Source: Glaciecola nitratireducens FR1064
GTDB lineage: Bacteria > Pseudomonadota > Gammaproteobacteria > Enterobacterales > Alteromonadaceae
Assembly (NCBI RefSeq): GCF_000226565.1
Contig: NC_016041.1
Location: 2,170,001 to 2,234,000 of the forward strand
Length of the DNA: 64,000 nucleotides
Direction: 5' to 3'
The notes under the pieces are model-generated. The model was not told where the DNA came from and searched no databases. It worked only from the letters and a program-made list of their open reading frames with translations. Shown here in pieces: positions 44,257 to 63,632 of the stretch (position 1 is the first letter of the stretch; every line of letters starts with the position of its first letter). The translations under genes and the position numbers were made by a program.

Positions 44257-45300
44257 ATGAAGAGTAAAGCAACCTCATTTGATATCGCGCACATGGCTGG
44301 TGTATCTCAATCTACTGTCTCACGAGCGCTGAGTGACAGTCCATTGGTGAATAAAGAGACACGAGAACGCATCAAAAAGATTGCACAGGATCTTAACTAC
44401 AAGGTTGATAAAAACGCGAGTAATTTGCGAAAGCAACATAGCCAAACCCTTGCATTGCTGCTATTTGAAGATCCTACTTCGGATGATTCACTCATTAATC
44501 CTTTTTTCATATCAATGCTTGGAAGTATCACAAAAGCAACCGCTGCTGCCGGATATGACCTACTCGTCTCCTTTCAAAATATGAAGGATGACTGGCACGC
44601 TGTTTATGAAGACTCCAATAAAGCTGACGGACTTATTTTGTTAGGTTATGGCAGTTACACCGACTACGAATACAAGCTATCTCAATTGGAAGAACAAGGA
44701 ACCCGTTTCTTGCGTTGGGGAGCTCCTGACAAGAAGCATCCCGGCATTTCGATCGGTTGTGATAATTTTTTAGGTGGCGTGGAAATAACCAAACATCTAG
44801 TAAGTTTAGGACATAGAAGCTTTGCGTTTATTGGCCAAGCCGATGAGAGTGCGCCAGAGTTTAAAGGCCGCTTTGATGGATTCATGACGGTTATTGCACA
44901 AGCTGGATTTGATACTTCAAAAGTCGTGCAAAAAAACGCTATTTCAACGGAGCTGTCTGGTTACAAAGCAGCCATGGAAATACTGGAGGGTGAGCATCCA
45001 AATGCGATTGTTTGCGCTTCAGATCTTATTGCAATGGGAGCGATTAGAGCCATTAGAAGCAAAGGCTTAAAAGTTCCTAGAGACATTGCAGTTGTAGGGT
45101 ATGACAATATCCAAATAAGTCAATTTGCCTCTACCCCACTGACAACGGTTCATCAAAACACCCAAGTTGCCGGTGAATTGCTGGTCTCAAATCTGCTAAA
45201 GTTGATACACAATGAGCCAGTAACAGATTATTTGATGCCACCTGAATTGATCGTGCGTGAATCTTGCGGGTGTGGTTTTATTTCATACAAAAATAACTAG
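44257..45300 (+). CDS. LacI-family transcriptional regulator of the alpha-glucan locus
   Basis: 347 residues. N-terminal LacI helix-turn-helix (FDIAHMAGVSQSTVSRALS at ~8-26) and hinge (LNYKVDKNASNLRKQ), then a periplasmic-binding-protein-like effector domain (~60-340). The C-terminal RESCGC is common in Alteromonadales sugar regulators. It sits 5' of the TonB receptor, MFS symporter, halogenase and glucosidase genes, so I infer it controls them in response to maltose, maltodextrin or a breakdown product. The shared palindrome at 45640-45652 and 50880-50890 is a candidate operator. No strong ribosome site is visible upstream. Confidence 0.9.
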   Translation: MKSKATSFDIAHMAGVSQSTVSRALSDSPLVNKETRERIKKIAQDLNYKVDKNASNLRKQHSQTLALLLFEDPTSDDSLINPFFISMLGSITKATAAAGYDLLVSFQNMKDDWHAVYEDSNKADGLILLGYGSYTDYEYKLSQLEEQGTRFLRWGAPDKKHPGISIGCDNFLGGVEITKHLVSLGHRSFAFIGQADESAPEFKGRFDGFMTVIAQAGFDTSKVVQKNAISTELSGYKAAMEILEGEHPNAIVCASDLIAMGAIRAIRSKGLKVPRDIAVVGYDNIQISQFASTPLTTVHQNTQVAGELLVSNLLKLIHNEPVTDYLMPPELIVRESCGCGFISYKNN

Positions 45301-49167: not shown

Positions 49168-50631
49168 CTAAAGCCTGGTAACTTGAACATGCTCCTTCAC
49201 TCTAAATACGGCAAATCCTGCAATTATCATAGCAACGCCAGACACAACAATAATGTTTACGGCCTCATTGTCGAATGCATATTTAAGAATAAATCCAGCC
49301 GTTAAACCGCAAACAATTTGCGGCATAGCGATAGTAAAATTAAAAATCCCCATGTAAACGCCGGTTTTATCGGCAGGCAAAGCACCTGCTAGCATTGCAT
49401 ATGGCATAGCTAAAATAGCAGCCCAAGCGATGCCGATACCGACCATTGGTAATACCAAATTGACAGCCCCGGCAGGTACCGTAACCTGTGTAATAAGCAA
49501 ATTAACGGTAGTGGGCGTCAGGTCTTGGAAAAATAGAAAACTGATGTAACTGATACCGCCAATGAATAACGAGCCGGCGTAAACGACTTTACGCCCAATT
49601 TTGTCAGCTAACTTTGCCAAAACGACTGAAAATATGGCGGCAAACAGGGAATAGGCTGCGAACAAGATCCCGACCCAATCACCCGCTGCACCTTTGGCTG
49701 CAATTATCGATGCAGGCACGTCAACAGAATTTAGATAAACGGGATCGAACCATTTCACTTCTACCCCCCAAATGTGCTGGGTAATTGCGGGCGTTGTATA
49801 TACCCACATAATAAACAGCGCAAACCACGAAAAAAATTGCACGACGGCGAGCTGTCTCATTGTATCTGGCATTGATTTCATGAGCCTAAAAAACTCGGAT
49901 AGCTTTTGGCCTAAGGTTTTTTGGACTGCTAGCTCCTTTTCGACCAGCTCTGCGTCCAATCCTTTATAAGCATAGTAGTCTTTAGGTTTATATTCTTTGG
50001 TTCTAAAAACGGTCCATAGCACGCTACCCAATAAGACTGTAGCGCCTATGTAGAAAGCCCAAACAACAGATGGCGCCACGGCACCGGCTTTTGCCGTGTT
50101 CTCTAAACCAACAACATTGGTCAACACAAAAGGCAGAATTGAACCGATTACGGCCCCCACATTAATGAGAAGTGACTGAATTGAGTAGCCTGAATTGCGT
50201 TGCTCAGCAGGCACCATGTCAGAAACTAAGGATCTAAATGGCTGAAAGCAAACGTTAAAAGAAGCATCCATCAATGCCAGCATCAATACGCCAAAAATCA
50301 TAGGAGCAATCAGCGCCACAAACAATGACGCGTTTGGCATCAAAAACATACCCACGGCTGCGGCAATCGCACCCGCTAAAATAAACGGTCTGCGGCGACC
50401 TAGTTTGTTCCATGTTCTATCTGAAGCTGCGCCAACGATAGGTTGAACAAGTAGGCCCATAATCGGTGCAACTAACCAAAAGAAAGAAAGCGAATGAAGA
50501 TCGGCGCCTAAGTCAGAAAGGATTCGACTGGCATTGGCATTTTGCAAAGCGAAGCCAAACTGTACTCCCAAAAAACCGAAGCTAACAGTCCAAAGCTGCC
50601 AAAAGCTCAACCGGGGTTGCTGTTTCTGCAT
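49168..50631 (-). CDS. MFS sugar/H+ symporter (SLC45/MalT-like)
   Basis: 487 residues with 12 predicted membrane segments. The loop between TM2 and TM3 has the motif DRTWNKLGRRRPFILAG, and TM1-4 show FGWALQNANASRILSDLGA-like sequence; both are typical of the sucrose/maltose symporter group (GPH/SUT type). In Alteromonadales such proteins, next to a LacI regulator and TonB receptor, serve as inner-membrane maltose or maltodextrin permeases. A second signature DKIGRKVVYAG lies at the TM8-9 loop. It is divergent from the halogenase gene, which starts at 50913. Confidence 0.93.
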   Translation of the reverse strand: MQKQQPRLSFWQLWTVSFGFLGVQFGFALQNANASRILSDLGADLHSLSFFWLVAPIMGLLVQPIVGAASDRTWNKLGRRRPFILAGAIAAAVGMFLMPNASLFVALIAPMIFGVLMLALMDASFNVCFQPFRSLVSDMVPAEQRNSGYSIQSLLINVGAVIGSILPFVLTNVVGLENTAKAGAVAPSVVWAFYIGATVLLGSVLWTVFRTKEYKPKDYYAYKGLDAELVEKELAVQKTLGQKLSEFFRLMKSMPDTMRQLAVVQFFSWFALFIMWVYTTPAITQHIWGVEVKWFDPVYLNSVDVPASIIAAKGAAGDWVGILFAAYSLFAAIFSVVLAKLADKIGRKVVYAGSLFIGGISYISFLFFQDLTPTTVNLLITQVTVPAGAVNLVLPMVGIGIAWAAILAMPYAMLAGALPADKTGVYMGIFNFTIAMPQIVCGLTAGFILKYAFDNEAVNIIVVSGVAMIIAGFAVFRVKEHVQVTRL

Positions 50632-50879
50632 AAATTACTCTTATTGTTGTTATTGTTATTGTCGTGTTTATCGTTTTAAGCAGTATCGCGAAGACCAAAG
50701 ACAACAGAAGTGTTATCTGACCGACAAGCTAAACCCATGTAAACTGTATGTTAATTAATATAGCTAGTGTAACGTCATCATATATAAATGACTATCCAAG
50801 TGCATACGTATTCAGGCCGTATTGCTAAGTGTTTTCACCTCAAAACCAAACGAAGTCATGTATTCCTTGTTAATATTTG

Positions 50880-50890
50880 GTAAATTTTAC
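50880..50890. promoter_or_regulatory. Candidate operator GTAAATTTTAC ahead of the halogenase gene
   Basis: A palindrome of two 5-bp arms around one T, identical to the core at 45641-45651. It ends 22 bp before the ATG at 50913, between the divergent MFS and halogenase genes, so a bound repressor could block the halogenase promoter or transcript. Confidence 0.4.
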
Positions 50891-50912
50891 ACATAATAAA
50901 TTGATTACAAAG

Positions 50913-52451
50913 ATGACAATGAAAAAACTGCTAATTTTGGGAGGTGGCACTGCCGGTTGGATGGCAGCAAATATGCTGAATCACTATTTCACAGAAAGCA
51001 AAGTCATCAATCCAAACCAAAAGAGTTGGCAGATTACACTAGTAGAGTCACCACAAATCGGAATTATTGGCGTAGGTGAAGGCTCAACACCTCAATTAAA
51101 GAAATTTTTTGACCTGCTTGGGATCCAAGAGTCCGAATGGATGCCCGCTTGCCACGCTACTTACAAAAATGGCATAAGTTTTCTGCAATGGAGTGAACAC
51201 CAAGCAACTAATCGCTACTTTCATCCTTTCCCCTCTCCTTTTGACCGACAGACAGCCTCGGCTTTTTTATATCACTGTCAAATGCGCTCAAGAGGAATGG
51301 ACGTTCCGGTTAATCCTGATGACTTCTTCCTGTCAGCTAAATTAGCTCAGCTGAATCGAAGCCCAAAACCCTTGTTAGGAAAACCACAAATACCGCTAAA
51401 TTACGCTTATCACTTCGATTCAGCAAAGTTAGGCGCTTTTTTATGTCAGCGCGCTGTTAATAGAGGCGTAGTGCATATTAACGGCAAAATGGAACGTGCA
51501 ATACAGGATAAAGATAAAAGCATGCGAGCAATTAAACTAGCAACAGGTGAAACACTGGATGCCGACTTATTTATCGATGCAACAGGTTTTAACTCATTGT
51601 TGTTACAGGGAGTGTTAGAAGAACCATTCGACTCATTTGACAGCAACTTATTTAACAACAAAGCCGTAGCGATACCTTCTACAAGTCAAAAAATCATTCC
51701 TTCTGAAACCAAAGCAACTGCGCTTTCTGCTGGTTGGGCTTGGCAGATACCATTAACTAATAGGACAGGAAATGGTTATGTATATAGCGATCAGTATTTA
51801 TCACCAGAGCAGGCCGAAGAAGAGCTTCGACGCCACATCAATTCAAATATAGCTGACGAGAGCGAAACCCGAAGCGAAGCAAAACACCTTAATATGAAAG
51901 TAGGTCAAGTGCAGCGCCACTGGCATAAAAACGTCGTTGCCGTTGGGCTATCGCAAGGCTTTATAGAGCCATTGGAGGCTACCGCACTGCATCTCGTGCA
52001 GGAAACGATTCAAAAGTTAGCGGCTAGTTTGACAGATCCCTCTTTTGATTCTGAGCAAGAACGCATTAAGCTCAGGTTCAATGAAGCAATAAAAAGGCGC
52101 TTCAATGGCATAAGAGATTACATTGTGTGTCATTACAAAATGAACACTAGAACGGACTCGCAATACTGGGTCGATAATAGAGAAAATAACAACATTTCGA
52201 CACAATTAGCCGATGTTATCGACACTTGGCGCTCAAAGAAAGATATTGCTGCAGTGTTGGAACAGCATCAAATGACCCACTATTATCCAGTTATTTCATG
52301 GTATTGCCTGCTAGCAGGGTACGGTTCCTTCGCACCAGCAACTTCTCCAAACAAACTGCCAAGCAGCAACATGAAGCAATTAGCGCACTACATTATGCAA
52401 AACGCATCTCACTTTGCCCCGCACAATGAAAGTTTAGGAATAAGCACGTAA
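50913..52451 (+). CDS. Flavin-dependent 'tryptophan halogenase' family protein
   Basis: 512 residues from the ATG at 50913; an in-frame TTG at 50877 is not supported, and a Met two codons on is an alternative. FAD motif GGGTAGW at 10-16, the catalytic Lys of the family at K85 (ATYKNGISF), the halogenase mark WAWQIP at 275-280 (WxWxIP) and the Glu of FIEPLEAT (E352/E355). All key residues of the flavin-dependent halogenases are present. Members found beside TonB receptors in Alteromonadales, Xanthomonadales and Caulobacterales are a distinct branch; a few have been shown to brominate indole in vitro, and the native role is not known. Here it lies in an alpha-glucan locus and carries a candidate operator in common with the TonB receptor. 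No flavin reductase is adjacent. Confidence 0.93.
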   Translation: MTMKKLLILGGGTAGWMAANMLNHYFTESKVINPNQKSWQITLVESPQIGIIGVGEGSTPQLKKFFDLLGIQESEWMPACHATYKNGISFLQWSEHQATNRYFHPFPSPFDRQTASAFLYHCQMRSRGMDVPVNPDDFFLSAKLAQLNRSPKPLLGKPQIPLNYAYHFDSAKLGAFLCQRAVNRGVVHINGKMERAIQDKDKSMRAIKLATGETLDADLFIDATGFNSLLLQGVLEEPFDSFDSNLFNNKAVAIPSTSQKIIPSETKATALSAGWAWQIPLTNRTGNGYVYSDQYLSPEQAEEELRRHINSNIADESETRSEAKHLNMKVGQVQRHWHKNVVAVGLSQGFIEPLEATALHLVQETIQKLAASLTDPSFDSEQERIKLRFNEAIKRRFNGIRDYIVCHYKMNTRTDSQYWVDNRENNNISTQLADVIDTWRSKKDIAAVLEQHQMTHYYPVISWYCLLAGYGSFAPATSPNKLPSSNMKQLAHYIMQNASHFAPHNESLGIST

Positions 52452-52635: not shown

Positions 52636-55194
52636 TTAGAGTAAAATTTTCAATTGTAGCTCTGTCTCAAGAATTCCCTTCACTCGAATAAGCTGCGTTT
52701 TTTGGTCCCAGTATGCCCCGCTTGAAATATGTTCAAAATCATCAGCTTCTTGCAATTTTATAGATCTACCATTTACCATTAAATCTCGGGGCTGTTTTTC
52801 AACGCCATGCACAACAAAGGTCATTTTTCTATGCTTCGGTGACCCTTTGTAGGCCCCTTTAACCGACACTAACAAATCAAGCTCTTCAGCATTTGAGGTT
52901 AATGCTAAAGCTGACGCGAAGTTGAGCGTTTGATAATTCTGTGATGCTATGGAATCTGCGCTTTTTCCATCATCATCGAACATCACATATTGAGACAGGG
53001 TCACAGAGCTATCATGATAGTAATGAACGTTTAATTCCGCACTATCATATTCGGTGGTGTTTCGCATATTCTGCGCCATCGGCACAAATGCACCGGCTTT
53101 CACTAAAACAGGGATCTGCTCGAGCGTTGACTCGATAGTAAGGGCCTTGCTGGTGTCACTGAGGTTGGTGTATTTAACATCATTCCAGTAGTTAAACCAA
53201 ACCCCTTTTGGCAAAGCAATTGTAGCCTCACTAAGGCCTGGCTCTGTGATAGGCTTTACCAAAAACGCATCTCCCCAAAAGTAACTGAGTGCGTTATCAA
53301 TATCAGCGCTAGCGGTATTAAAGAATGTCGGCCTCATCATAGGGGTGCCAAAGAGCGAATTTTCGAAAGATAGAGAATAGTTGTACGGCAGCATGCGATA
53401 ACGCAACTTTACAAATTCACGCGTAATGTCTTTCGTTTTTTGGTCGTGAAATATAGGCTCTGGGGCAATGTTGTCTTGCGCATGCGGTCGGTATACAGGT
53501 TGAAAAACGCCGTATTGCAGCCAGCGAATATAGAGCTCAGGGTCGAATGTTTCACCGCCAGCAAAACCACCAAGATCGGAGTGTGTGTAAGCTAAACCAA
53601 ACAGACTCATTTGCAGGGCTAGCTCCACTTGTGGTTTCAAACCGCCCCACTCTCGCGATACATCGCCCGTCCACGGGATCATGCCATAACGTTGACTGCC
53701 CAGAAAACCAGAACGCATCATGATGAAGGGACGCTCATTAGGATGCAGTTCAGTTTGACGTTCATATACCATTTGCGCCCATTGATGACCGTAAACATTA
53801 TGAATTTCATCGCCCGTTACAAACTTACCGTCCAATAAATGCAAGCTATCTTTTGGGTGCACCTCAGGCTCCCCTAAATCACCCCACCACCCCGCAACAC
53901 CTTGCTCGTCCAGAGCAGCATAAAAACGCCAAAACCAATCTTGCGAGGCTTCATTGAAAACATCCACTAAACCTGTGTTTCCAAAATAGAAGTCAAAGCG
54001 CCTTGGACCGCCGCCAATACTGCGCGCCAAAGCGTCGCTTTCAACGGCTGAATCCCACTGAGATGATGTTGATAAAATGAAGGGCTCGGTGATTAAGATG
54101 GTCTTTACCCCCTTATCATTGAGTGTTTTGATCATTTTTTCTGGCTCTGGAAAGGCAGCTTTATCCCATTGTAAATTGCCCATATGGCCCTTAATATCAG
54201 GTCCAAACCAATATAAATCTAACACTATTGCATCAACTGGAAAATCTTCAGCTAAAAAAGTATCGATGGTATCGAGGGTTTGCTTTTGTGTCTTGTAACC
54301 AAATCTCGACGCGTAATTACCCAACGCCCAACGTGGAGGTAGAGGTTGTTTTCCTGTCACATCAACGAAATTAGCTACTAAGTCGGCGTAAGTTGAGCCA
54401 GAACTAATGATGTATGACGTTCTTCCTGCCTCTGCTTCAAATTGTAAAACATCGCTTTGAGTGTGGCCGATATCGAGGAAACCAGAGGCGCTATTGTCAA
54501 ATCCGATGGCATACATATTGGTAGACATCACGGCAGGCAAACCGTAATACATCTGCGACGACTCAGTGGTATAACCATAGTGCGCTTTATTATACAAAGG
54601 CAGGCGATGACCACGCCTATCCATTCCTAAAACACGTTGCCCTGCGCCCATAATTTTTTCATCGTCTTGCAGGATAAATCGAAAACCACGCAGAGTATCA
54701 AAATGAAATAGACCGGCTTCCTCCGCAATAAGTAATTTACCGCCGCGGTAGTAGCTGATAGAAAAAGGAGAGATTTGCAGACGGGCAGTCAAATTCGCAA
54801 CCGAAAACTCAAGATAATCGTCAAATGAGCTCAACTTAGCATCTAAATACTGGCGTTCAGTAACCCCTTCTGCCAATGCAAACGAAGGTAATTGCTTCAC
54901 GTTTTCTGGCTGATAAAAAATTTCAAACGACGCATCATTGATTGCCGTTATTGTTAAATTACCGGTCGATAGCGTGACATGCAAAACTTGTTTTTGTTTT
55001 TTGGCATCTTTAAGTTCAACAAGTTGAAGATGTTCCTGTCTGCTTTCTTCAACGCTCTGACCCGTTCCCTGACTTGCATATGGAATACTATTTTTTGCCT
55101 CTACGCTGCCAGTGTAGAGGGCACTAACATTTAGAACAAAGCCAAATAGCAGCCCAAGCATCAGTTGACTTGATAAGCTGTGTAGGCGTTTCAT
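52636..55194 (-). CDS. GH31 alpha-glucosidase-type glycoside hydrolase, exported
   Basis: 852 residues with an N-terminal signal peptide (LMLGLLFGFVLNVSALYTGSVEA). An N-terminal beta-sandwich (~60-280) precedes a (beta/alpha)8 barrel (~285-620). The catalytic nucleophile is D439 in WWGDLGEPE and the acid/base is D511 in PWTGDVSREW, both in standard GH31 contexts. C-terminal beta domains follow (~640-852). It should hydrolyse or transfer alpha-glucosyl residues in the periplasm or at the cell surface, acting on products of the upstream GH13. It overlaps the GH13 stop by 4 nt (ATGA). Last gene of the carbamoyltransferase operon. The exact linkage preference is not readable. Confidence 0.94.
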   Translation of the reverse strand: MKRLHSLSSQLMLGLLFGFVLNVSALYTGSVEAKNSIPYASQGTGQSVEESRQEHLQLVELKDAKKQKQVLHVTLSTGNLTITAINDASFEIFYQPENVKQLPSFALAEGVTERQYLDAKLSSFDDYLEFSVANLTARLQISPFSISYYRGGKLLIAEEAGLFHFDTLRGFRFILQDDEKIMGAGQRVLGMDRRGHRLPLYNKAHYGYTTESSQMYYGLPAVMSTNMYAIGFDNSASGFLDIGHTQSDVLQFEAEAGRTSYIISSGSTYADLVANFVDVTGKQPLPPRWALGNYASRFGYKTQKQTLDTIDTFLAEDFPVDAIVLDLYWFGPDIKGHMGNLQWDKAAFPEPEKMIKTLNDKGVKTILITEPFILSTSSQWDSAVESDALARSIGGGPRRFDFYFGNTGLVDVFNEASQDWFWRFYAALDEQGVAGWWGDLGEPEVHPKDSLHLLDGKFVTGDEIHNVYGHQWAQMVYERQTELHPNERPFIMMRSGFLGSQRYGMIPWTGDVSREWGGLKPQVELALQMSLFGLAYTHSDLGGFAGGETFDPELYIRWLQYGVFQPVYRPHAQDNIAPEPIFHDQKTKDITREFVKLRYRMLPYNYSLSFENSLFGTPMMRPTFFNTASADIDNALSYFWGDAFLVKPITEPGLSEATIALPKGVWFNYWNDVKYTNLSDTSKALTIESTLEQIPVLVKAGAFVPMAQNMRNTTEYDSAELNVHYYHDSSVTLSQYVMFDDDGKSADSIASQNYQTLNFASALALTSNAEELDLLVSVKGAYKGSPKHRKMTFVVHGVEKQPRDLMVNGRSIKLQEADDFEHISSGAYWDQKTQLIRVKGILETELQLKILL

Positions 55195-57194
55195 TTCAAT
55201 TGTTCCTTCAAGTTAACTTCAAGTACAACCGACTGTAGTCCATTTAATTGAACACTCACAAAAGCATCAGAACGTTTCCTGGCAACCTGCATTTCATATG
55301 CAATACCATTCAGTAAATCGTTTGCTGCGTAGGCTCCCTCGCTTACTTGCCACTCTGTTAACAGCGAAATTGGCAACTTAACTGTTACCGTCGATAAGTC
55401 GTCTTCACTAAAATTACTTACCACGATTAGCGCCTTATTCTCAGTCCACCTGACAAATGCAAATTGTGCATTTGAATATTCATTCGTGCTGTCAACTTGT
55501 GCACTTGTAACGTTAAATGAATGCAAGCTTTGATATTTTCCAAGCATAGTTGGATGATTTGCAGAAATGAGCATTACGCGTTCATAAAACGCACGTAGTT
55601 GTTTTTCAAACTCTGTCGATTGACCACCATCGAACTTACCGTTGTTCATGTACCGCTGATGAGCAGGTACCCCAGCATAATCAAATATCGTGGTTCGTGA
55701 TGGATCACCAAAACCCGTTTCCTCTGAACCATCCTCGCCCACATCTTGCGCAAAATAAAGCATCGTTGGTGACTTGCTGATTAAGGCAGAAACCACCATT
55801 GCCGGCTTGCCTTTCTCAGCACTGCCTGCAAATTCATCGCTGGCAATGCGCTGTTCATCGTGATTTTCAAGAAAGTGCAGCATGTGTAGCTCAATATCAG
55901 CAAGGGACAATTGAATATCTTCTAGAGCTTGAGCATCGCCCTTTCCTTGCATTAATAATTTGAGCGAGTCGTAAAACTCTACCTTGTCATACAGGTAATC
56001 CATTTTGCCAAGCTGCAAATACTCACGATATAAGCTCGGGTTATATACTTCGGCCAATAAGAATGCATCCGGATTCTTTGCTTTAATCGATGAGTTTAGA
56101 AAGGACCAAAACTCAACCGGCACCATTTCAGCCATATCATAGCGAAAACCATCCACGCCTTTATCAAGCCAGTAATGCACTATTTGCTCAAATTTAATCC
56201 ATGAATCGGGAACGGATTTATCTTGCCAAAAAGCAGCGTGCTGACTCAGTGATTTATCCGCATATTCCTTCGGTAACCTATCAAAATCGTAGCTACCGTC
56301 TGGTTTTACACCGTAGTTCACTTTAATCGTTTCATACCAATCGTTAGCACTAGGTTGCGATTCACGTGCACCATTTCCCGTCCATTTAGCAGGCATTTCA
56401 ACAAATTTACCATCCGATAAGGGGTGCGCTTCGCCGCCCAATGGTTTATAGCCATTTTCGCTTAACGGCACTTTGAATGCTTCGCCAACCACATAGTAAA
56501 AATTATTATCGCGTGCATATTCAAGATCTGTGTTGTCGTTTTCACCAAAATCACTGACGCCCTCAGGCTTACTTAAGGACTCATAAGCGCGTGCAACATG
56601 ATTTGGCACAATATCAATAATGACTTTTAACTGCTGTTCGTGAGTGCGTTCGATCAACGCTTCAAACTCGGCGAGTCTATTTGCGGGATCATCAGCTAAA
56701 TCGGGGTTAACGTTGTAGTAGTCTTTGACTGCATAGGGAGAACCCGCGCGTCCTTTCACCACATCAGGATCATCGAGCGTGATACCAAGCTCTTTATAAA
56801 CATTGTCTGTGTAATCATTAACAACGGCGTGATGAGGAACACCGGTATACCAAACATAGGATGCACCAAGTGCCTTGATGCTTTGCAATGCTGCTGCATC
56901 AAAGTCGCTAAACTTACCCACGCCATTTTCCTCTAGCGTTCCCCACGGCTTATTGGTCTCATTTGTGTTTCCAAATAAACGAGTGAACACTTGATAGACC
57001 ACTGGTTTACCCTCACCTTGCGCCGCGTGAGGATGAGTATCGATAATAGTTTGCTGTGTGTTTTTCATTTGCTTTGTTTCGCTTGTATTATTGGACGCCT
57101 GCTGCGGGTCTGATGGTGAACAAGCACCCATTACAATGACCGAACATGCGAGGGCTAACAAGGTGCAAAAGTGACGTTTGCGGATAGAAGACAT
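55191..57194 (-). CDS. GH13 alpha-amylase-type lipoprotein
   Basis: 667 residues. Lipobox VMGACSP gives Cys25, so it is a membrane-anchored enzyme. All conserved GH13 regions are present: region I DIVPNHVAR (~194-202), region II GFRYDMAEM with nucleophile D353, region III LLAEVYN with acid/base E382, region IV FLENHDEQ with D446. N-terminal insert is rich in Asn and Thr. It cleaves alpha-1,4-glucans near the envelope, giving maltodextrins. AGGGA precedes the ATG at 57194, 9 nt after the DUF5989 stop, so it is tightly coupled to the SxtJ/DUF5989 genes. The sequence differs from the common MalS type; the exact product is not clear. Confidence 0.93.
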   Translation of the reverse strand: MSSIRKRHFCTLLALACSVIVMGACSPSDPQQASNNTSETKQMKNTQQTIIDTHPHAAQGEGKPVVYQVFTRLFGNTNETNKPWGTLEENGVGKFSDFDAAALQSIKALGASYVWYTGVPHHAVVNDYTDNVYKELGITLDDPDVVKGRAGSPYAVKDYYNVNPDLADDPANRLAEFEALIERTHEQQLKVIIDIVPNHVARAYESLSKPEGVSDFGENDNTDLEYARDNNFYYVVGEAFKVPLSENGYKPLGGEAHPLSDGKFVEMPAKWTGNGARESQPSANDWYETIKVNYGVKPDGSYDFDRLPKEYADKSLSQHAAFWQDKSVPDSWIKFEQIVHYWLDKGVDGFRYDMAEMVPVEFWSFLNSSIKAKNPDAFLLAEVYNPSLYREYLQLGKMDYLYDKVEFYDSLKLLMQGKGDAQALEDIQLSLADIELHMLHFLENHDEQRIASDEFAGSAEKGKPAMVVSALISKSPTMLYFAQDVGEDGSEETGFGDPSRTTIFDYAGVPAHQRYMNNGKFDGGQSTEFEKQLRAFYERVMLISANHPTMLGKYQSLHSFNVTSAQVDSTNEYSNAQFAFVRWTENKALIVVSNFSEDDLSTVTVKLPISLLTEWQVSEGAYAANDLLNGIAYEMQVARKRSDAFVSVQLNGLQSVVLEVNLKEQLK

Positions 57195-57203
57195 GCGATA
57201 TCC

Positions 57204-57356
57204 CTAAAATAAGGTGTAAATAAAAGTAGCAAGTGATGACTGCTGTGTCGCCACAACAATACCGCCCAATAAAGCCAGAATAATAATAATTGGCAACAGC
57301 CAAAGCTTTTTACGTACTCTTAGAAAAGCCCATAAATCTTGTAAAAATTCAGTCAT
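57204..57356 (-). CDS. DUF5989-type small membrane protein
   Basis: A 50-residue frame I translated from the minus strand. It starts MTEFLQDLWAFLRVRKKLWL, has a hydrophobic core (LPIIIILALLGGIVVA) and ends SSLATFIYTLF. The pattern E-F-L-x-x-L-W-x-F-L-R-x-R-K-K-x-W-L-L-P-I and the FIYTLF end match DUF5989 as I know it, a family regularly encoded next to SxtJ and carbamoyltransferase genes. One membrane helix with a basic cytoplasmic collar is expected. The ATG begins one base after the SxtJ stop and the stop is 9 nt before the GH13 start. Its partner or function is not known. Confidence 0.9.
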   Translation of the reverse strand: MTEFLQDLWAFLRVRKKLWLLPIIIILALLGGIVVATQQSSLATFIYTLF

Positions 57357-57357
57357 A

Positions 57358-57795
57358 TTAAAAAGGTTCCTCTAAGCGTTTCTTATCTTTTCTAGCATCC
57401 GTGTGTGTTTGCTTAACCCAGTTGCTCTGATTGTTTACCTGCTTTTTATACTGTAATTTGCCTAATGCCTTCATGATCAGTCCGATAGGTGTTATTACAA
57501 TATAAAAAACCAGTCCTAAAATTAACCTTGTGTTAAACCATCCCAAAACAGAGGCAATGATCATCCAAACATAATAAGGGTAGTAAATGCCTTTTGGATA
57601 AACGGCATAAAGTGACATCAATACACTGCTGACTGCGAGAGGCCAGTATGCCACCGCATGATTGAATAGCCACGGTAACAGAAGCGTAAATACGAAGGGA
57701 AAGGCAATTGACATAGTTAATGCAAATGAGCGCATCGCTCTCGTGTCATTGCTATTAGCCAGCGGTAACATCACGTTTTTCAGCCTATTTTTCAT
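57358..57795 (-). CDS. SxtJ-family membrane protein
   Basis: 145 residues with about four hydrophobic stretches (~25-45, 50-68, 75-90, 92-112) and a basic, Lys/Arg-rich tail. It matches the SxtJ family, first named in saxitoxin clusters but widespread beside NodU/CmcH-type carbamoyltransferases. The segment PKGIYYPYYVWMIIASVLGWFNTRLILGLVFY is the family core. Its role is not known; a membrane partner or transporter-like part for the carbamoyltransferase has been assumed. It starts 5 nt after the carbamoyltransferase stop. Confidence 0.88.
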   Translation of the reverse strand: MKNRLKNVMLPLANSNDTRAMRSFALTMSIAFPFVFTLLLPWLFNHAVAYWPLAVSSVLMSLYAVYPKGIYYPYYVWMIIASVLGWFNTRLILGLVFYIVITPIGLIMKALGKLQYKKQVNNQSNWVKQTHTDARKDKKRLEEPF

Positions 57796-57800
57796 GTCTA

Positions 57801-59717
57801 TTAATCCTTATCGAAAGTGATGTTTTTTGCAGCCTGTATTTGTTCATTTGGCTGTTCTGCCTTTAAAAGCACCACGTTTTGCATCACCAATACATCCATA
57901 TCCGTGGCCAAAAAACAGCGTATAGCATCATCAGGACTGCAAACGGGTGGCTCACCTCTGACATTAAAAGAAGTATTAATGACCATTCCAACGCCCGTTA
58001 GACGCTTAAACTCGCTGATAAGGCGATGAAATTTAGGATTAGTTGTTTTGTGAACGGTTTGTACTCGCGCTGAATTATCAACGTGAGTTATAGCTGGAAC
58101 TGAACTTCGGATTTGGTGCAGTTTCTCTAGTCCTTCCAGCTGAGAATTTTCTAATTTCAAGCAATGCTCGTTTCTAAGGTCGGCAACCATCAACATATAC
58201 GGGCTAGCAGCTTCCATGTCGAACCAGTGACTCAAGTCTTCACACAAAACGGCTGGTGCAAAAGGTCTGAAAGACTCCCGCTGCTTGATTTTAATGTTCA
58301 TCTGAGACTGCATTTGCGTATTGCGGGCATCACCGATAATCGAACGATTACCTAGCGCGCGAGGTCCAAATTCCATTGCATCTTGAAACCAACCGACCAC
58401 TTTTCCACTATCAAGATAGGCTGCAATTTGGCTGAACAATGCCTCGTCCTCAACGACAGAGAAAGGCAGTGACTTATTTTTGCAGGCGAGCTGGGCCTGT
58501 TCAGAGCTGAACTGACAGCCCAAATAAGCACCTTTCATGTGATCACGTTCTGCAAACTCACCTGATGCTTTATTAATCTCTAACAACTTTTTAGGATTTT
58601 GATAATACTTATGCCAAACTTGTAATGCTGCACCAACGGCACTCCCCGCATCGCCAGCGGCAGGTTGGATCCATATATGTTTAAACGGTCCTTCTCGGCT
58701 CAAGCGACCGTTGGAAACGCAGTTAAGAGCAACGCCGCCAGCCAGACAGAGGTTTTCACAAGCGGTTTGCTGATGTAAATATCCTGCTATTTTCAACACA
58801 ATTTCTTCGGTAACAACTTGAATAGAGCGCGCTAGGTTCATTTGTTTTTGTGTTGTCTCACTGTCATAAGGGTGAGCTGGTCCATCAAACAAACGATGAA
58901 ACTTTGCATTTGTCATCGTTTGACCCGCAGCATAGTCAAAATAATCCATGTCCAGCGAAAAGCTGCCGTCATCTCTTATATTGACTAAGTTCTGCTTGAT
59001 AATATCAACGTACTTTGGCTCACCGTATGGCGCTAAGCCCATCAATTTATATTCGCCACTGTTTACTTTAAAGCCACAGTACTGGGTAAACGCCGAGTAG
59101 AGTAAACCAAGAGAATGTGGAAAATGGATCTCAAATAAAGGGCTTAATTCACCCGATATACCGCGCCAAGCTGAGGACGTAGCCCACTCGCCTACACCGT
59201 CCAAGCATAGCACTGCTGCGTCATCAAACGGACTTGGAAAATAGGCAGCCGCGGCATGTGACTCATGGTGTTCACAAAAAAGTAGCTGCGGCACTTTGGG
59301 TTTTTTCTCTTTGTTTACTTCATCGAAATAAGATGTGCCGTTCGCTTGAGCCCGCTGCTCATGAATTAACTTGCGCAGTTCGGTGCGCAGTACCGATTTC
59401 AAATACAGCTTCTCTTTTAACCAAATAGGCATAGCGCGCAAAAATGACAAAAAACCGCGTGGCGCTGTTGCTAAATAGGTTTCAAGCAGTCGCTCGAACT
59501 TTAGCAGAGGTTTATCGTAAAACACCACTGCATCGATATTCTGCAAGTCGGTATTGGTGCTCTGCAAACAATATTGAATAGCCTGCGCAGGGAAATCAGG
59601 GTCATGCTTTATGCGACTAAAACGCTCTTCTTGCACTGCGCATTGAATATCACCATCGACTATTAGCGCCGCAGCGCTGTCGTGATAGAAAGCTGATATC
59701 CCTAAAATTTTTATCAT
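57801..59717 (-). CDS. NodU/CmcH/TobZ-type carbamoyltransferase
   Basis: 638 residues. N-terminal Kae1-like domain: ILGISAFYHDSAAALI (~4-19), EERFSRIKHD, metal-binding FCEHHESHAAAAYFPSPF (His near 150-154), CLDGVGEW near 171-178 and GGVALN at 327-332. The YrdC-like C-terminal part includes EFGPRALGNRS at ~449-459. These are the family marks of O-carbamoyltransferases, which use carbamoyl phosphate and ATP to carbamoylate a hydroxyl (for example on sugars or antibiotics). The target here is unknown. First gene of a compact minus-strand operon: carbamoyltransferase, SxtJ, DUF5989, GH13, GH31. Divergent from the SGNH pair, with 199 nt between starts. No ribosome site is evident. Confidence 0.93.
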   Translation of the reverse strand: MIKILGISAFYHDSAAALIVDGDIQCAVQEERFSRIKHDPDFPAQAIQYCLQSTNTDLQNIDAVVFYDKPLLKFERLLETYLATAPRGFLSFLRAMPIWLKEKLYLKSVLRTELRKLIHEQRAQANGTSYFDEVNKEKKPKVPQLLFCEHHESHAAAAYFPSPFDDAAVLCLDGVGEWATSSAWRGISGELSPLFEIHFPHSLGLLYSAFTQYCGFKVNSGEYKLMGLAPYGEPKYVDIIKQNLVNIRDDGSFSLDMDYFDYAAGQTMTNAKFHRLFDGPAHPYDSETTQKQMNLARSIQVVTEEIVLKIAGYLHQQTACENLCLAGGVALNCVSNGRLSREGPFKHIWIQPAAGDAGSAVGAALQVWHKYYQNPKKLLEINKASGEFAERDHMKGAYLGCQFSSEQAQLACKNKSLPFSVVEDEALFSQIAAYLDSGKVVGWFQDAMEFGPRALGNRSIIGDARNTQMQSQMNIKIKQRESFRPFAPAVLCEDLSHWFDMEAASPYMLMVADLRNEHCLKLENSQLEGLEKLHQIRSSVPAITHVDNSARVQTVHKTTNPKFHRLISEFKRLTGVGMVINTSFNVRGEPPVCSPDDAIRCFLATDMDVLVMQNVVLLKAEQPNEQIQAAKNITFDKD

Positions 59718-59916
59718 TTGGCCGGTTCTGTTTACAAACGAATCGTTAGTTTACTGATATTTTTGGTGTGAACTAGTCTAAGCCCAGTATTTAGCCAGTT
59801 TTTCGCACCGAATACGTATGCAACAATCCATTTACATGATTTTTACGCTTATTTTAGGATAAACTGACAGCAACAAAGACTCACTAGATTAAAAATACGA
59901 AGGTGCTTTAGCAAAT
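59718..59916. promoter_or_regulatory. Divergent promoter region of the carbamoyltransferase and SGNH units
   Basis: 199 bp between divergent start codons at 59717 and 59917. AT-rich; no clear palindrome matching GTAAATTTTAC is found here. AAGGTG lies 14-16 nt before the SGNH start, a rather long spacing. Shared control of the two operons is likely from the layout only. Confidence 0.4.
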
Positions 59917-61803
59917 ATGTCGGAAAACACGAAACAAAGTCCAGGAACGAGTTCCAGTGTTGATCAAAAGCGCCCTGTTTTTTATGTGATTGCTATTTTG
60001 TTACCTTTCGTATTGCTGCTTATACTTGAAGGTCTATTGCGCATATCAGGCTTTGGTAAGGAGTATCCTTTATTTGTTCCATCGAACTACAGTCAAGACT
60101 ATTTGCAAGCAAACCCCGAGGTAGTAAAACGTTTCTTTCATCAAGCAAAATTTGCTCCGCCTGTCGGCCCTGACACCTTTTTGTTTCAAAAGAGTAAAGA
60201 TCCGGACAGCATTCGCATTGTTTTGATGGGTGGGTCAACCGCAGCCGGTTTTCCATACGGTCGTTTCGGCTCCCCTGCTGGTATGCTGAATCAACGGATA
60301 AAAGCACAATTTCCAGATAGTCATGTTGAAATTATCTCAGTGGCAATGGCCAGCATTAATAGTTACGCGTTGTTGGATTTCGTTGATGAAGTCATAGAGA
60401 TTGAACCCGATGCCGTGCTCATTTACGCAGGTCACAATGAATACTTAGGCGTGATGGGCGTAGGCTCAGTTTATGCTTCAAACGGCAGTCACGCAGCCAA
60501 CTTACTATTTTTAAAATTGAAAGACTGGCGAGTTTTTCAGTTAATACAGTCAATCTACTACGCGCTCTTTCAAACACCTGTTGATGCCGATCATAGCGAT
60601 GGTTCACGCACCGTTATGGCGTCTGTAGCCAAAGAGAAAGCTATTGCTTTTGACTCAGCCTTGTTTGCACAAGGTTCAGCGCAGTTTGAACAAAACTTGA
60701 TGGCCATTCAGTCTGCACTACGCAACGCTAAGGTCCCTTTATATTTATCCACCATTGCATCTAATGAAATGGACTTGCCGCCGTTTTCCTCAAGCAATAA
60801 TCCCGATGTAGAGCAACTTATTGACCGAGCAAAACCTCGTTCAAATAGACGAATCATTCAACAAGGAGTGACGCTTTTGGAGCGCGGCGATACATCGGCC
60901 GATCTGGCTTACGCAGTCGCGCAAGCAATGTTAGACGAAAGTGACGAACGCGCCGCGGATTTCTTTACACTGGCAAAAGATTACGATCTTCTTCGTTTTC
61001 GAGCGCCATCTTCGTTTAATCATATTATTGAAGAAATTGCAGAGAAAAGTAGTGTAGGTAGCTCACCTACATTTTTAGTTGATAGTGAAGCCGCCATCAG
61101 GAACGACTCTAGTGGCAATATTATTGGTGCTCAACATATGTTGGAACATTTGCATCCAACACCCCGCGGCTACTTTTTAATTGCAGATTCGTTTTACCGA
61201 GCCTTATTAGCTAATGGTTTCTTTAATAAGCTACCCGCGGCAAGGCGGACGATTTCAGACTCGCAATTAACCGAACAAGCTTGGCGGAATATGCCACTTT
61301 CTGTTGTAGATCAGTTGGTAGGTGAGTATAAAATTTCAACACTTACTTCTGATTATCCCTTCACGAATAGCAAAATTAATGTGGCTGCGCCTAAGAGCGA
61401 TACCCCAATGCAGAAAATAGCGAAAAGACGCGTTGAGGGTGAACCGTGGATCACAACACAGCAAGAGCTTTTAGTGGTCTTGCAGCAGCAAAATAATATA
61501 AGTGAAGCAGCAAAAGCTGCTGGTCTGCTATATGATGCGTTGCCAAATGAGACCGAGGCCGCTCGCGTCGCTAGTTTGTTATATCTAGAAATAAACGAGC
61601 TTGGCTTTGCAGAATTTTACGCTCGTCGTGCGCTTGCCGATAGCATAAAAAACAAGCGAACAAACGCTAATTACTACCTCACTCTTGCTGAGGTTATTTA
61701 TAAATCAGGTGATATTTCAGGTGCCGTTTCTATATTAAATGAACTGTTAGAAATTGAACCTGATAATACACGCGCCATTACTATCAAGAATCAATTGAAT
61801 TAA
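59917..61803 (+). CDS. Membrane-anchored SGNH-fold protein with C-terminal TPR-like region (copy 1)
   Basis: 628 residues. One N-terminal membrane anchor (~20-42, FYVIAILLPFVLLLILEGLLRI). An SGNH-type catalytic region follows: block I GGSTAAGFP at 105-113 with Ser107, block III GHNEYLG at 172-178 with Asn174, block V HLHPTPRGY at 411-419 with His413 and Glu410. These match the Ser-Gly-Asn-His layout of GDSL/SGNH esterases and acyltransferases, with a long insert (~190-370). The C-terminus (~510-628) is TPR-like (ISEAAKAAGLLYDALPNETEAARVASLLYLE and GDISGAVSILNELLEIEPDNTRAI). The catalytic part is probably periplasmic. It is followed 5 nt later by a paralogue. Likely an esterase or O-acetyltransferase/transferase; substrate unknown. 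Confidence 0.88.
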   Translation: MSENTKQSPGTSSSVDQKRPVFYVIAILLPFVLLLILEGLLRISGFGKEYPLFVPSNYSQDYLQANPEVVKRFFHQAKFAPPVGPDTFLFQKSKDPDSIRIVLMGGSTAAGFPYGRFGSPAGMLNQRIKAQFPDSHVEIISVAMASINSYALLDFVDEVIEIEPDAVLIYAGHNEYLGVMGVGSVYASNGSHAANLLFLKLKDWRVFQLIQSIYYALFQTPVDADHSDGSRTVMASVAKEKAIAFDSALFAQGSAQFEQNLMAIQSALRNAKVPLYLSTIASNEMDLPPFSSSNNPDVEQLIDRAKPRSNRRIIQQGVTLLERGDTSADLAYAVAQAMLDESDERAADFFTLAKDYDLLRFRAPSSFNHIIEEIAEKSSVGSSPTFLVDSEAAIRNDSSGNIIGAQHMLEHLHPTPRGYFLIADSFYRALLANGFFNKLPAARRTISDSQLTEQAWRNMPLSVVDQLVGEYKISTLTSDYPFTNSKINVAAPKSDTPMQKIAKRRVEGEPWITTQQELLVVLQQQNNISEAAKAAGLLYDALPNETEAARVASLLYLEINELGFAEFYARRALADSIKNKRTNANYYLTLAEVIYKSGDISGAVSILNELLEIEPDNTRAITIKNQLN

Positions 61804-61808
61804 GACGA

Positions 61809-63632
61809 ATGAAAAAAAATCTCACAAAAAATAAGCATAGCGAGAATGGAAAGAAACAACGAGTTATCTTCTATGTAATTACGGCACTTATTCCACTCTT
61901 GTTTTTTGTTTTTCTTGAAATGGGTTTACGACTTGTTGGCTTTGGCAACTCGGCACCATTGTTTATCGAAAATCCAGCACATCCAAGTTATCAACTACCC
62001 CGCCCAGATGTCATGTCGCGTTATTTCCCAGAAAATGCGCCTAAACCTTCGGTCACCATGGAAGCTAACTTTATTCTTAAAGAAAAACCCAAGAATGGCT
62101 ACAGAGTAGTTGTGCAAGGAGGAAGCACTGCGGCAGGGTTCCCTTATGGTTTAGGTGCGAGTATCGCAGGTACGCTTGATCAACGCCTCAAAGCGAGCAT
62201 GCCTGGACGATATGTAGAAGTACTCAATACCGCCATGTCTGCGGTAAATAGCTACACCTTACTCGATTTTGCAGATGAAATTATTGAGCAAAAGCCCGAT
62301 GCCGTATTGATTTATGCGGGTCACAATGAGTTTCTTGGGATTTTAGGTGTCGGTTCGAACTATACAGCGATGGGCTCAGGGGCAACCACTAGATGGTTTT
62401 TATCTCTAAAAGATTTCAGAATCTTTCAGTTAATCCAGCGCATTTATTTCGGACTTGCCACTCCAGAAGAATCTGGAAATACCGTAAAAAAAGGCAATCA
62501 GCTCGTTACTTTAGAAGAACAGAAAACTGGCCAACAGTCTCGCACGTTTATGGCAAAAGTAGCGAAAAATAAAGCGATTGCGAAAGGCTCCAGCGTTTAT
62601 AAAGCAGGTCTCGCCCAGTTTGAAAACAATATGTCCGAACTACTCGCTAAATACAGAAAGGCAAACATTCAAGTTTATATTTCAACGATTGCGAGTAACC
62701 AAGCGGATCAAGCGCCTTTTTCTAGCCTACCGATTGAGAGTAAATTTATAGACTCAACAAATGCTTTTTTCTCTGGTATCGGAAAGATAAGCCGGCAACA
62801 GCAGCTTCGAGACTTGGGATCAGCTTCAATAACATTTTTAGAGTCAACATCAGCAGATTTACACTTTAAAATCGCTAATCTTGCACTACAGCTGAAACAA
62901 GCAAGTATTGCGAAAACACATTTTGCATTGGCACTAGAACATGACCAATTGCGCTTTAGAGCGCCGTCGGCAATAAATGACATTATTCGCAAACTGGCAA
63001 CACAATATAACGCTGTGCTAGTTGACGCAGAGAGCGAGCTTGCCATTCGCAGCCCTGACGGAATCGTAGGTAGCGCGATGATGTTGGAGCATCTGCATCC
63101 AAACCTACAGGGTTATTTTGTCATTTCAAACGCATTTTATGAAGCCATTGCGGCGAACGCCAATATAAAACCGTTTACTAAGGTCAGCATAGATAGAGCG
63201 TGGAGAGAGCGCTTAGTGCTTACACAAGAGGAATACTATGGTTTTGCGACCATATTGAATTTGACTTCTGACTATCCCTTTAGCCAAAACCCAACAACAC
63301 CGTCTCTGCCCAAACCAGGCGACTGGCAGCAGCAGTTGGGCTTAGACTTTTTTGTTAAAAAAATATCTTGGCTACAAATGATGGAAACCAGTTTAGAACG
63401 ATACCGAAGTGACAATAATCCAACAATGATGGCTAAAGCGATACAAATTCTCGCCGATGCACTGCCGCACAACGGCTTATATAATCTACAAATTGCTGAG
63501 ATCAAGTTTACCCAGCAGCGCTTCAGTGAGTCTTTGTACTATTACCAGCGTGCAAAACGCGCTGGTGCCCTAGGAGAAGCAATAGATAACAACATTAAAC
63601 TAATTCAAGCTGCTTTGCCCGAGGTGAAGTAG
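61809..63632 (+). CDS. Membrane-anchored SGNH-fold protein with C-terminal TPR-like region (copy 2)
   Basis: 607 residues, a clear paralogue of the gene before it: same N-terminal anchor (VIFYVITALIPLLFFVFLEMGLRLVGFG), GGSTAAGFP with Ser106, GHNEFLG with Asn173, and HLHPNLQGY near residue 418 for the His block. All four SGNH residues are present in both copies, so both are probably active. The two proteins differ in the insert and in the TPR-like end (ALPHNGLYNLQIAEIKFTQQRFSESLYYYQRA). Tandem duplication with retained active sites suggests two related substrates or a heteromer. Stop at 63632; a Usp gene converges 16 nt later. Confidence 0.88.
   Translation: MKKNLTKNKHSENGKKQRVIFYVITALIPLLFFVFLEMGLRLVGFGNSAPLFIENPAHPSYQLPRPDVMSRYFPENAPKPSVTMEANFILKEKPKNGYRVVVQGGSTAAGFPYGLGASIAGTLDQRLKASMPGRYVEVLNTAMSAVNSYTLLDFADEIIEQKPDAVLIYAGHNEFLGILGVGSNYTAMGSGATTRWFLSLKDFRIFQLIQRIYFGLATPEESGNTVKKGNQLVTLEEQKTGQQSRTFMAKVAKNKAIAKGSSVYKAGLAQFENNMSELLAKYRKANIQVYISTIASNQADQAPFSSLPIESKFIDSTNAFFSGIGKISRQQQLRDLGSASITFLESTSADLHFKIANLALQLKQASIAKTHFALALEHDQLRFRAPSAINDIIRKLATQYNAVLVDAESELAIRSPDGIVGSAMMLEHLHPNLQGYFVISNAFYEAIAANANIKPFTKVSIDRAWRERLVLTQEEYYGFATILNLTSDYPFSQNPTTPSLPKPGDWQQQLGLDFFVKKISWLQMMETSLERYRSDNNPTMMAKAIQILADALPHNGLYNLQIAEIKFTQQRFSESLYYYQRAKRAGALGEAIDNNIKLIQAALPEVK

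Follow-up and report, generated by a model that had tools for sequence, protein, structure and literature searches.

A 64,000-nt stretch of contig NC_016041.1 from Glaciecola nitratireducens FR1064 (positions 2,170,001 to 2,234,000; hereinafter the window) contains a conserved set of five genes that, by analogy with known acyl shuttles, we read as a candidate transmembrane O-carbamoylation relay, in which a carbamoyl group would pass from a carbamoyltransferase through SxtJ and DUF5989 to SGNH proteins and thence to an exported glycan; we give this reading about an even chance (probability roughly 0.5). The genes are:

57801..59717, minus strand: O-carbamoyltransferase (CTase), NodU/CmcH/TobZ family, 638 aa, predicted cytosolic carbamoyl donor (PF02543 and PF16861)
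57358..57795, minus strand: SxtJ-family membrane protein, 145 aa (PF19588)
57204..57356, minus strand: DUF5989 protein, 50 aa, one hydrophobic helix, predicted carbamoyl shuttle (PF19451)
59917..61803, plus strand: SGNH protein, 628 aa, membrane-anchored (by eye), TPR-like C-terminal part
61809..63632, plus strand: SGNH protein, 607 aa, membrane-anchored (by eye), helical C-terminal part

These genes and families had been named in an earlier note on this DNA, and Pfam searches confirm them: Carbam_trans_N (E 1.2e-106) and Carbam_trans_C (E 5.5e-71) together cover most of the CTase, SxtJ matches PF19588 (E 1.1e-18) and DUF5989 matches PF19451 (E 5.6e-24), while one SGNH protein falls under the PF13472 cut-off (E 6.1e-7; 30.5 bits, cut-off 32.9) and the other reaches 1e-7 (33.1 bits). 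The CTase has both Pfam domains of the NodU/CmcH/TobZ/GdmN O-carbamoyltransferases, which to our knowledge work without SxtJ or DUF5989; its PDB relatives in phmmer searches include decarbamoylnovobiocin carbamoyltransferase (9s2t), GdmN and TobZ, whose substrates are antibiotics. The gaps of 5 and 1 nt reported between the CTase, SxtJ and DUF5989 genes are correct, and the three do lie together as an operon, but its extent had been given incompletely: a GH13 gene starts 9 nt past DUF5989 and a GH31 gene overlaps GH13 by 4 nt, making an operon of five genes (CTase, SxtJ, DUF5989, GH13, GH31) probable. The partnership of CTase and SxtJ is further supported by two CTase-SxtJ fusions (L167 and L168, from two genomes of one genus), each with DUF5989 as the next gene, and L167 has an SGNH gene too. 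The structure model of SxtJ had a low pTM, and nothing in the PDB matched it at E ≤ 0.001.

The earlier note had staked its system on the co-occurrence of these families, and a survey of 398 phylum and 147 family genomes found them together. SxtJ is present in 46 of the 398 phylum genomes (43 exceeding the family cut-off), with a CTase in all 46 and DUF5989 in 45. At 39 of the 47 SxtJ places (none dropped) both partners are encoded on the same strand no more than 5 kb away, in the order SxtJ-DUF5989-CTase (J-D-C) in 33 and CTase-SxtJ-DUF5989 (C-J-D) in six; at six neither partner lies within 5 kb, four of these being at contig ends, and G034 having both partners about 12 kb off. Likewise, 47 of the 51 DUF5989 places in the 46 genomes, themselves chosen for SxtJ, have a CTase within 5 kb. 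Within the family, the SGNH protein occurs in 26 of 147 genomes, all 26 with DUF5989 and a strong CTase match; the Pfam SxtJ model overlooks two of the 26, and tblastn finds SxtJ in both. CTase, SxtJ, DUF5989 and SGNH form one cluster at 25/25 fetched family loci, our own locus not counted. The association of these genes is far above chance, and, as judged from these genomes, the five are a conserved unit travelling together. Co-occurrence supports the earlier proposals that the module is conserved and likely targets an exported glycan, and that SxtJ and DUF5989 partner the CTase at the membrane.

Across the phylum, 15 of 38 places of the set have a PF13472 match no more than 5 kb away (0.39 expected); this sample was drawn from 37 of the 46 SxtJ genomes and leaves out the six with neither partner near SxtJ, G069 (no CTase near) and G018 and G077 (full trio). 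An SGNH profile built for this analysis drifted onto CTases (13-35 bits); CTase hits were discarded and the remainder are treated as leads only. By eye, a single membrane segment is visible at the N-terminus of each SGNH protein of the window. The second (61809..63632) was modelled with a pLDDT of 87.1 and a pTM of 0.86, with the SGNH fold at about residues 95-454, and its best-scoring fold neighbours are mostly esterases. The catalytic blocks (G105, S106, N173, E427 and H430) are invariant in 34/34 aligned proteins.

The claim that no product is known for this gene group is not supported. The set matches saxitoxin sxtI-J-K-L, in which CTase and SxtJ genes are likewise grouped with a short gene, sxtK (165 nt), and with one for a GDSL protein. 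The arrangement here is similar: the SxtJ-family gene has the CTase gene and a short gene as its neighbours, and a GDSL gene completes the group. In the published clusters sxtJ and sxtK lie next to sxtI, and the suomilide cluster has sxtJ, K and L as well (PMC2679770, PMC2885083, PMC10157211). By place and length, as given in PMC2679770, SxtK is a candidate DUF5989 protein; the name DUF5989 was not found in the literature searched on SxtJ or DUF5989, and the passages on SxtJ and SxtK in the saxitoxin work give both as of unknown function (PMC2679770, PMC2885083). Unlike the sxt set, the locus studied here has two large SGNH-TPR proteins on the opposite strand and an alpha-glucan locus around it. 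Carbamoyl on a bacterial surface glycan has a precedent in the Pseudomonas LPS core (WapO, putative), where NMR places the carbamoyl carbon near 159 ppm, in an account that, in its passages on this modification, does not mention the SxtJ, DUF5989 and SGNH set (PMC8005017). An antibiotic or toxin cluster was considered and discarded: genes of that kind were absent from those scanned around the set.

Evidence for a shuttle comes from the tail of DUF5989:

57207..57224, minus strand: codons for the C-terminal hexapeptide FIYTLF, which fits the acyl-shuttle motif FXYXXF

In the relevant passages of PMC12148441, FXYXXF is the acyl-tyrosine shuttle of DltX and MBOATs (NgPatA ends in FIYANF), with acetyl and D-alanine as reported cargoes; in the DltX-DltB-DltD and PatA-PatB systems described there, it ends a microprotein (DltX) or the MBOAT, and a serine of the SGNH partner takes the group. 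The locus has the corresponding traits, an FXYXXF tail with an invariant tyrosine and an SGNH partner with conserved catalytic blocks. The tail tyrosine is kept in 55/55 distinct DUF5989 proteins (strict motif in 49/55) and in five of five further copies (strict in two). As a specificity control, 12,465 ORFs from all six frames, with overlapping loci counted, were screened, and 47 end exactly in FXYXXF: 44 match a DUF5989 profile built for this analysis (40 distinct), one is an MBOAT (in L038; PF03062, E 4.9e-26; ending FIYFDF) and two are short ORFs. The tail, which runs for 13 or 14 residues after the hydrophobic core, is conserved better than the rest of the protein, and the excess of K+R on the N side over the C side in 55/55 homologues predicts that it lies on the outer face. 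A search of the PDB sequences with DUF5989 gave no match up to E 10, and the DltX family was absent from its Pfam hits up to E 10 (HMMER filters on). Unlike the Dlt and Pat systems, the locus has a soluble CTase and SxtJ, with carbamoyl as predicted cargo, and no MBOAT was seen: none was among the genes scanned around the set, and phmmer found no match to the L038 MBOAT in the window, L035 or L036.

Gene neighborhoods point to the carbohydrate context of the module:

55191..57194, minus strand: GH13 alpha-amylase-type enzyme, export (lipoprotein-like) signal by eye (PF00128, E 1e-17)
52636..55194, minus strand: GH31 alpha-glucosidase-type enzyme, export signal by eye (PF01055, E 6.3e-86)
50877..52451, plus strand: tryptophan-halogenase-like flavoprotein (PF04820)
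49168..50631, minus strand: MFS sugar transporter (PF07690 and PF13347)
45750..48665, plus strand: TonB-dependent receptor (PF00593 and PF07715)
44257..45300, plus strand: LacI-family regulator, may read the palindrome below (PF00356 and PF13377)
L036:4892-12375, beyond the end of the window: genes for a pullulanase and a TonB receptor

The set lies inside a predicted alpha-glucan utilisation locus that extends beyond the window and includes a receptor, glucan hydrolases, a transporter and a regulator, together with a common palindrome; the TonB receptor, pullulanase, GH13, GH31, MFS and LacI genes are shared with such loci, and the carbamoylation module is extra here. A limited literature search found no such link between a carbamoylation module and an alpha-glucan locus. 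The LacI-family protein scored below every NCBIfam equivalog cut-off. Alpha-glucan genes adjoin the set in 24 of 25 fetched family relatives, which rules out chance adjacency of GH13. Dependence of GH13 on the set is also ruled out: among the best 80 of 302 GH13 relatives, seven loci (L090, L091, L093, L094, L100, L101, L120) have GH13 and GH31 without the set, which is present at three (L088, L089, L117). Outside the family, polysaccharide-synthesis genes accompany the C-J-D sets at L037-L039, and an ABC exporter occurs at L045.

A 14-bp palindrome recurs in this region:

59809..59822, unstranded: copy in the divergent promoter region of CTase and SGNH, a likely operator, one mismatch to the 50801 site
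50801..50814, unstranded: between the MFS and tryptophan-halogenase-like genes
L036:12501: third copy, with no mismatch, upstream of the TonB receptor and pullulanase genes

It lies in the CTase/SGNH intergenic region of 10 of 25 loci including our own (0.13 expected), or 9/24 without our own, which is not independent, the palindrome having been defined on the window; L077 was excluded (no SGNH start found), and the L079 site at 8504 was out of bounds and scored as a miss. At six palindrome-bearing loci (L058, L060, L064, L067, L069, L076) no GH13 was found directly after DUF5989. The palindrome is likely an operator common to the promoters of the set and of the alpha-glucan locus. This palindrome, the alpha-glucan locus and the acyl-shuttle tail of DUF5989 had been overlooked in the earlier note.

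The proposed relay would be analogous to the DltX/MBOAT-SGNH acyl shuttles, with the soluble CTase as the likely donor instead. Like other members of its family, the cytosolic CTase would use carbamoyl phosphate to make an activated carbamoyl group; SxtJ would anchor the CTase at the inner membrane and build a passage with DUF5989, whose tail tyrosine would be loaded at the outer face. An SGNH serine would then receive the carbamoyl from this tyrosine, a transfer made plausible by the fact that serine esterases are carbamoylated by aryl carbamates. In the last step the SGNH proteins would attach the carbamoyl to a hydroxyl group of an exported glycan; the likeliest acceptors are an alpha-glucan and a surface glycan encountered by the exported hydrolases of the locus.

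A rival account, which we consider doubtful, has the CTase work in the cytosol on a small molecule or a sugar, like NodU, TobZ and probably SxtI. SxtJ and DUF5989 would then do no more than keep the enzyme close to an exporter, and the SGNH proteins would later strip off carbamoyl or acyl groups. The CTase's PDB relatives, which act on antibiotics, the mostly esterase neighbours of the SGNH fold and the 23 of 38 places without PF13472 within 5 kb agree with it, as does the proposal of SxtL as a decarbamoylase in the saxitoxin papers' treatment of that protein (PMC2679770, PMC2885083); however, it accounts neither for a shuttle hexapeptide with an invariant tyrosine nor for the predicted outer-face tail being the best kept part of DUF5989. 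That DUF5989 instead shuttles acetyl or a different acyl group, supplied by an MBOAT encoded at another place in the genome, with the CTase as a separate step on the same glycan, would suit the cargoes reported for the motif in PMC12148441 and the L038 MBOAT adjoining a set, but that MBOAT has a tail of its own, an FXYXXF-tailed MBOAT occurs in only one of 18 other phylum pieces (L037-L054), and a CTase accompanies DUF5989 at 47 of 51 places in the SxtJ genomes; we regard this as improbable.

The module might also be a passenger in the alpha-glucan locus, acting on a surface polysaccharide and fixed there in the family ancestor, which would be compatible with the relay. The polysaccharide-synthesis setting of the C-J-D sets examined outside the family and the occurrence of the alpha-glucan core without the set speak for such a history; the alpha-glucan genes at 24/25 loci and the palindrome common to 10/25 intergenic regions, six of them without GH13 found directly after DUF5989, speak against it, and we think it unlikely.

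Extending the relay reading, we tentatively suggest, as something short of an even bet, that DUF5989/SxtK is the carbamoyl counterpart of DltX, a microprotein with its C-terminal tyrosine being loaded by a soluble CTase via SxtJ, with no MBOAT, for onward transfer to SGNH transferases. In Alteromonadaceae the relay would be integrated into loci for sugar harvesting, a second shuttle-SGNH pair being found in a 1,3-beta-glucan locus of the same genome, and it would tag or shield glycans during the time that the cell has its amylases and pullulanase outside. The relay reading would give a testable role to two protein families without known function, and the tail motif reduces the question to a one-residue experiment. 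If the reading is true, carbamoyl would join the cargoes of shuttle chemistry, an activated group would cross the membrane without an MBOAT, and a glycan-degrading locus would hold glycan-decorating machinery, probably under the same regulator.

Gene coordinates and family matches bear out the divergent arrangement described in the earlier note, in which a carbamoyltransferase with SxtJ and DUF5989 partners faces two SGNH genes, and confirm the place and family of each member:

57801-59717, minus strand, CTase (NodU/CmcH-type O-carbamoyltransferase)
57358-57795, minus strand, SxtJ (PF19588)
57204-57356, minus strand, DUF5989 (PF19451)
59917-61803, plus strand, first SGNH gene (PF13472)
61809-63632, plus strand, second SGNH gene (PF13472)

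The minus-strand run continues past DUF5989, with the start of a GH13 gene 9 nt on and the GH31 and GH13 genes overlapping by 4 nt. Beyond the SGNH pair lie genes for a universal stress protein, a sulfate permease, a pullulanase (1492 aa) and a TonB receptor, and on the upstream side those for an MFS transporter, a halogenase-like flavoprotein, a TonB receptor and a LacI regulator. Judged by these gene families, the surroundings are predicted to form an alpha-glucan utilisation locus. Within the Alteromonadaceae, GH13, GH31 or pullulanase matches were found on the same piece of DNA at 24 of 25 loci with the set, the exception being a contig of 6.7 kb (L073). Among the best 80 of 302 GH13 relatives from named genomes, the set occurred at only three loci, all from Glaciecola, and seven loci combined GH13 and GH31 without it; the set is therefore accessory to the locus, which is also found without it.

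Across the Pseudomonadota, the association of CTase, SxtJ and DUF5989 proposed in the earlier note proved strong: SxtJ was detected in 46 of 398 genomes (43 above the cut-off), all 46 with CTase and 45 with DUF5989 (missing from G102). Both partners lie within 5 kb on one strand at 39 of 47 SxtJ places, 33 in the order SxtJ-DUF5989-CTase and six in that of the window, CTase-SxtJ-DUF5989; in the same range the others have DUF5989 alone (1), CTase alone (1) or neither (6). Relatives of the window's second SGNH protein were recovered from one of the 46 genomes, its own, and at 15 of 38 places a member of the wider family PF13472 lies no more than 5 kb away (0.39 expected). These 38 come from 37 of the 46 genomes and leave out the six places lacking near partners, one genome without a CTase nearby (G069) and two with the full trio (G018 and G077). 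We give no p-value since the genomes are related.

The proposed link to SGNH proteins is likewise upheld within the family. Among its 147 genomes, 27 have DUF5989, 26 SGNH, 25 SxtJ and 27 a strong CTase match (340 bits or more); 56 have any CTase match; the 29 weaker ones are mostly short and partial, and six are other CTases. Each of the 26 genomes with SGNH belongs to both the DUF5989 and strong-CTase groups, and the four genes are clustered at 25 of 25 loci besides the window's own (SxtJ at two by tblastn only), with two SGNH genes at 23 and a single one at L067 and L079. In the 27th genome (G491), DUF5989 is on a different contig from CTase and SxtJ, which share one, and a search of it found no SGNH of this type. 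Two genomes of the same genus (G398 and G501) have no match for any of the four genes, and the set has thus been gained or lost as a block.

The set and the alpha-glucan genes are likely under shared control, as suggested by the positions of a 14-bp palindrome, TGCATACGTATTCA, at the family loci. Its copies here are:

50801, exact copy between the MFS and halogenase genes
59809, copy with one mismatch between CTase and SGNH
L036:12501 (DNA past the window end), exact copy upstream of a TonB-pullulanase pair

A looser pattern, searched first, gave three matches in the whole window versus 4.22 expected; the case rests on position because the window as a whole is not enriched. With up to two mismatches, the palindrome occurs in the CTase/SGNH intergenic region of 10 of 25 family loci, the window's included (0.13 expected from its rate in other loci), and the coding sequence of the same loci, 391 kb in all, has only two matches. 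Some other family loci have it directly after DUF5989, ahead of GH13. Its candidate reader, by inference, is the LacI regulator.

Searches of the genome turned up a single CTase of this family and a single SxtJ, both at this locus, together with two DUF5989 and three SGNH genes of this type. The remaining two genes are divergent at a second locus (L035), where a search did not find the palindrome:

L035:8002-8154, minus strand, second DUF5989
L035:8501-10621, plus strand, third SGNH gene (SGNH-TPR)

This pair adjoins GH149, GH3, GH16 and halogenase-like genes, a predicted 1,3-beta-glucan locus. The third SGNH type occurs in four other family genomes, without DUF5989 at that place, and all four carry the main set. 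The pair fits the picture of shuttle-transferase pairs drawing on one CTase, but the second DUF5989 was seen in this genome only. A tryptophan-halogenase-like flavoprotein (50877-52451 in the window) is of a type present at both glucan loci and on 15 of 32 clustered family pieces.

All 55 distinct DUF5989 proteins, matched by a profile built for this analysis in the loci collected for it, stop at one common position and close with [FL][IL]YT[LV][FY]; 47 end in FIYTLF and 49 fit FXYXXF strictly. Five further copies end in FIYTLF, LIYTLF, FLYAIF and YIYAMF (twice), making the tail tyrosine conserved in 60 of 60. Mean K+R is 4.1 on the N side and 0.07 on the C side of the predicted topology, and the tail runs 13 or 14 residues beyond the hydrophobic core. 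To our knowledge, DUF5989 or SxtK has not previously been described as an acyl shuttle, and the listings returned by a literature search showed no such proposal. One study states that the microprotein DltX and MBOATs share FXYXXF as their acyl-shuttle motif, its tyrosine accepting an acyl group that a serine of the SGNH partner then receives, and NgPatA ends in FIYANF (PMC12148441). An exact C-terminal FXYXXF occurs in 47 of 12,465 ORFs (six frames, at least 45 aa), comprising 44 DUF5989 profile matches (40 distinct), two short ORFs and one MBOAT (465 aa; PF03062, E 4.9e-26) beside a CTase in L038. This MBOAT (L038:10394-11791), ending in FIYFDF, directly adjoins a CTase-SxtJ-DUF5989 set, and three SGNH-like genes are close by, which places two shuttle types within one polysaccharide cluster. 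Elsewhere, a CTase (L086:8048-10315) among sugar-biosynthesis-like neighbours (by eye) has a long C-terminal extension ending in PAFTYTF, faintly resembling the motif; its genome gave no SxtJ or DUF5989 match.

Across 34 aligned SGNH proteins, including the three of this genome, G104-G105-S106, N147-S148, G171, N173-E174, E427, H428 and H430 are invariant, by eye fitting a putative Ser-His active site with Glu replacing the usual Asp. A structure model of the second window protein has an SGNH core (~95-454) plus helical additions. An SGNH gene directly follows DUF5989 in two CTase-SxtJ-DUF5989 loci within polysaccharide-synthesis clusters (L038, L039), and follows CTase in L045, with an ABC exporter on the opposite side. 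CTase and SxtJ are physically linked, as single proteins, in two genomes of one genus (L167, Pfam SxtJ 23.7 bits, just below the cut-off of 24.4, own profile E 1.3e-17; L168, E 1.8e-14 with that profile). A 1068-aa protein (L050:10099-13305), on the strand opposite to a CTase-SxtJ pair in the sole one of the 46 SxtJ genomes without a DUF5989 match, fuses an SGNH domain to a CTase-like part; it ties SGNH to carbamoyl chemistry, although by eye this protein has no membrane segment at its N-terminus.

One reading uses all of these facts, namely gene set, locus, palindrome, tail motif and catalytic blocks, each established at the sequence level: a relay, to which we give roughly even odds (about 0.5), in which the carbamoyl group from CTase would be carried on the DUF5989 tail tyrosine, with a role for SxtJ, and pass via SGNH to an exported glycan acceptor. 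The modified sugar is predicted to be an alpha-glucan. As a guess, the modification might shield the own glycans of a starch-using cell against its exported hydrolases, or it might tag captured glucan.
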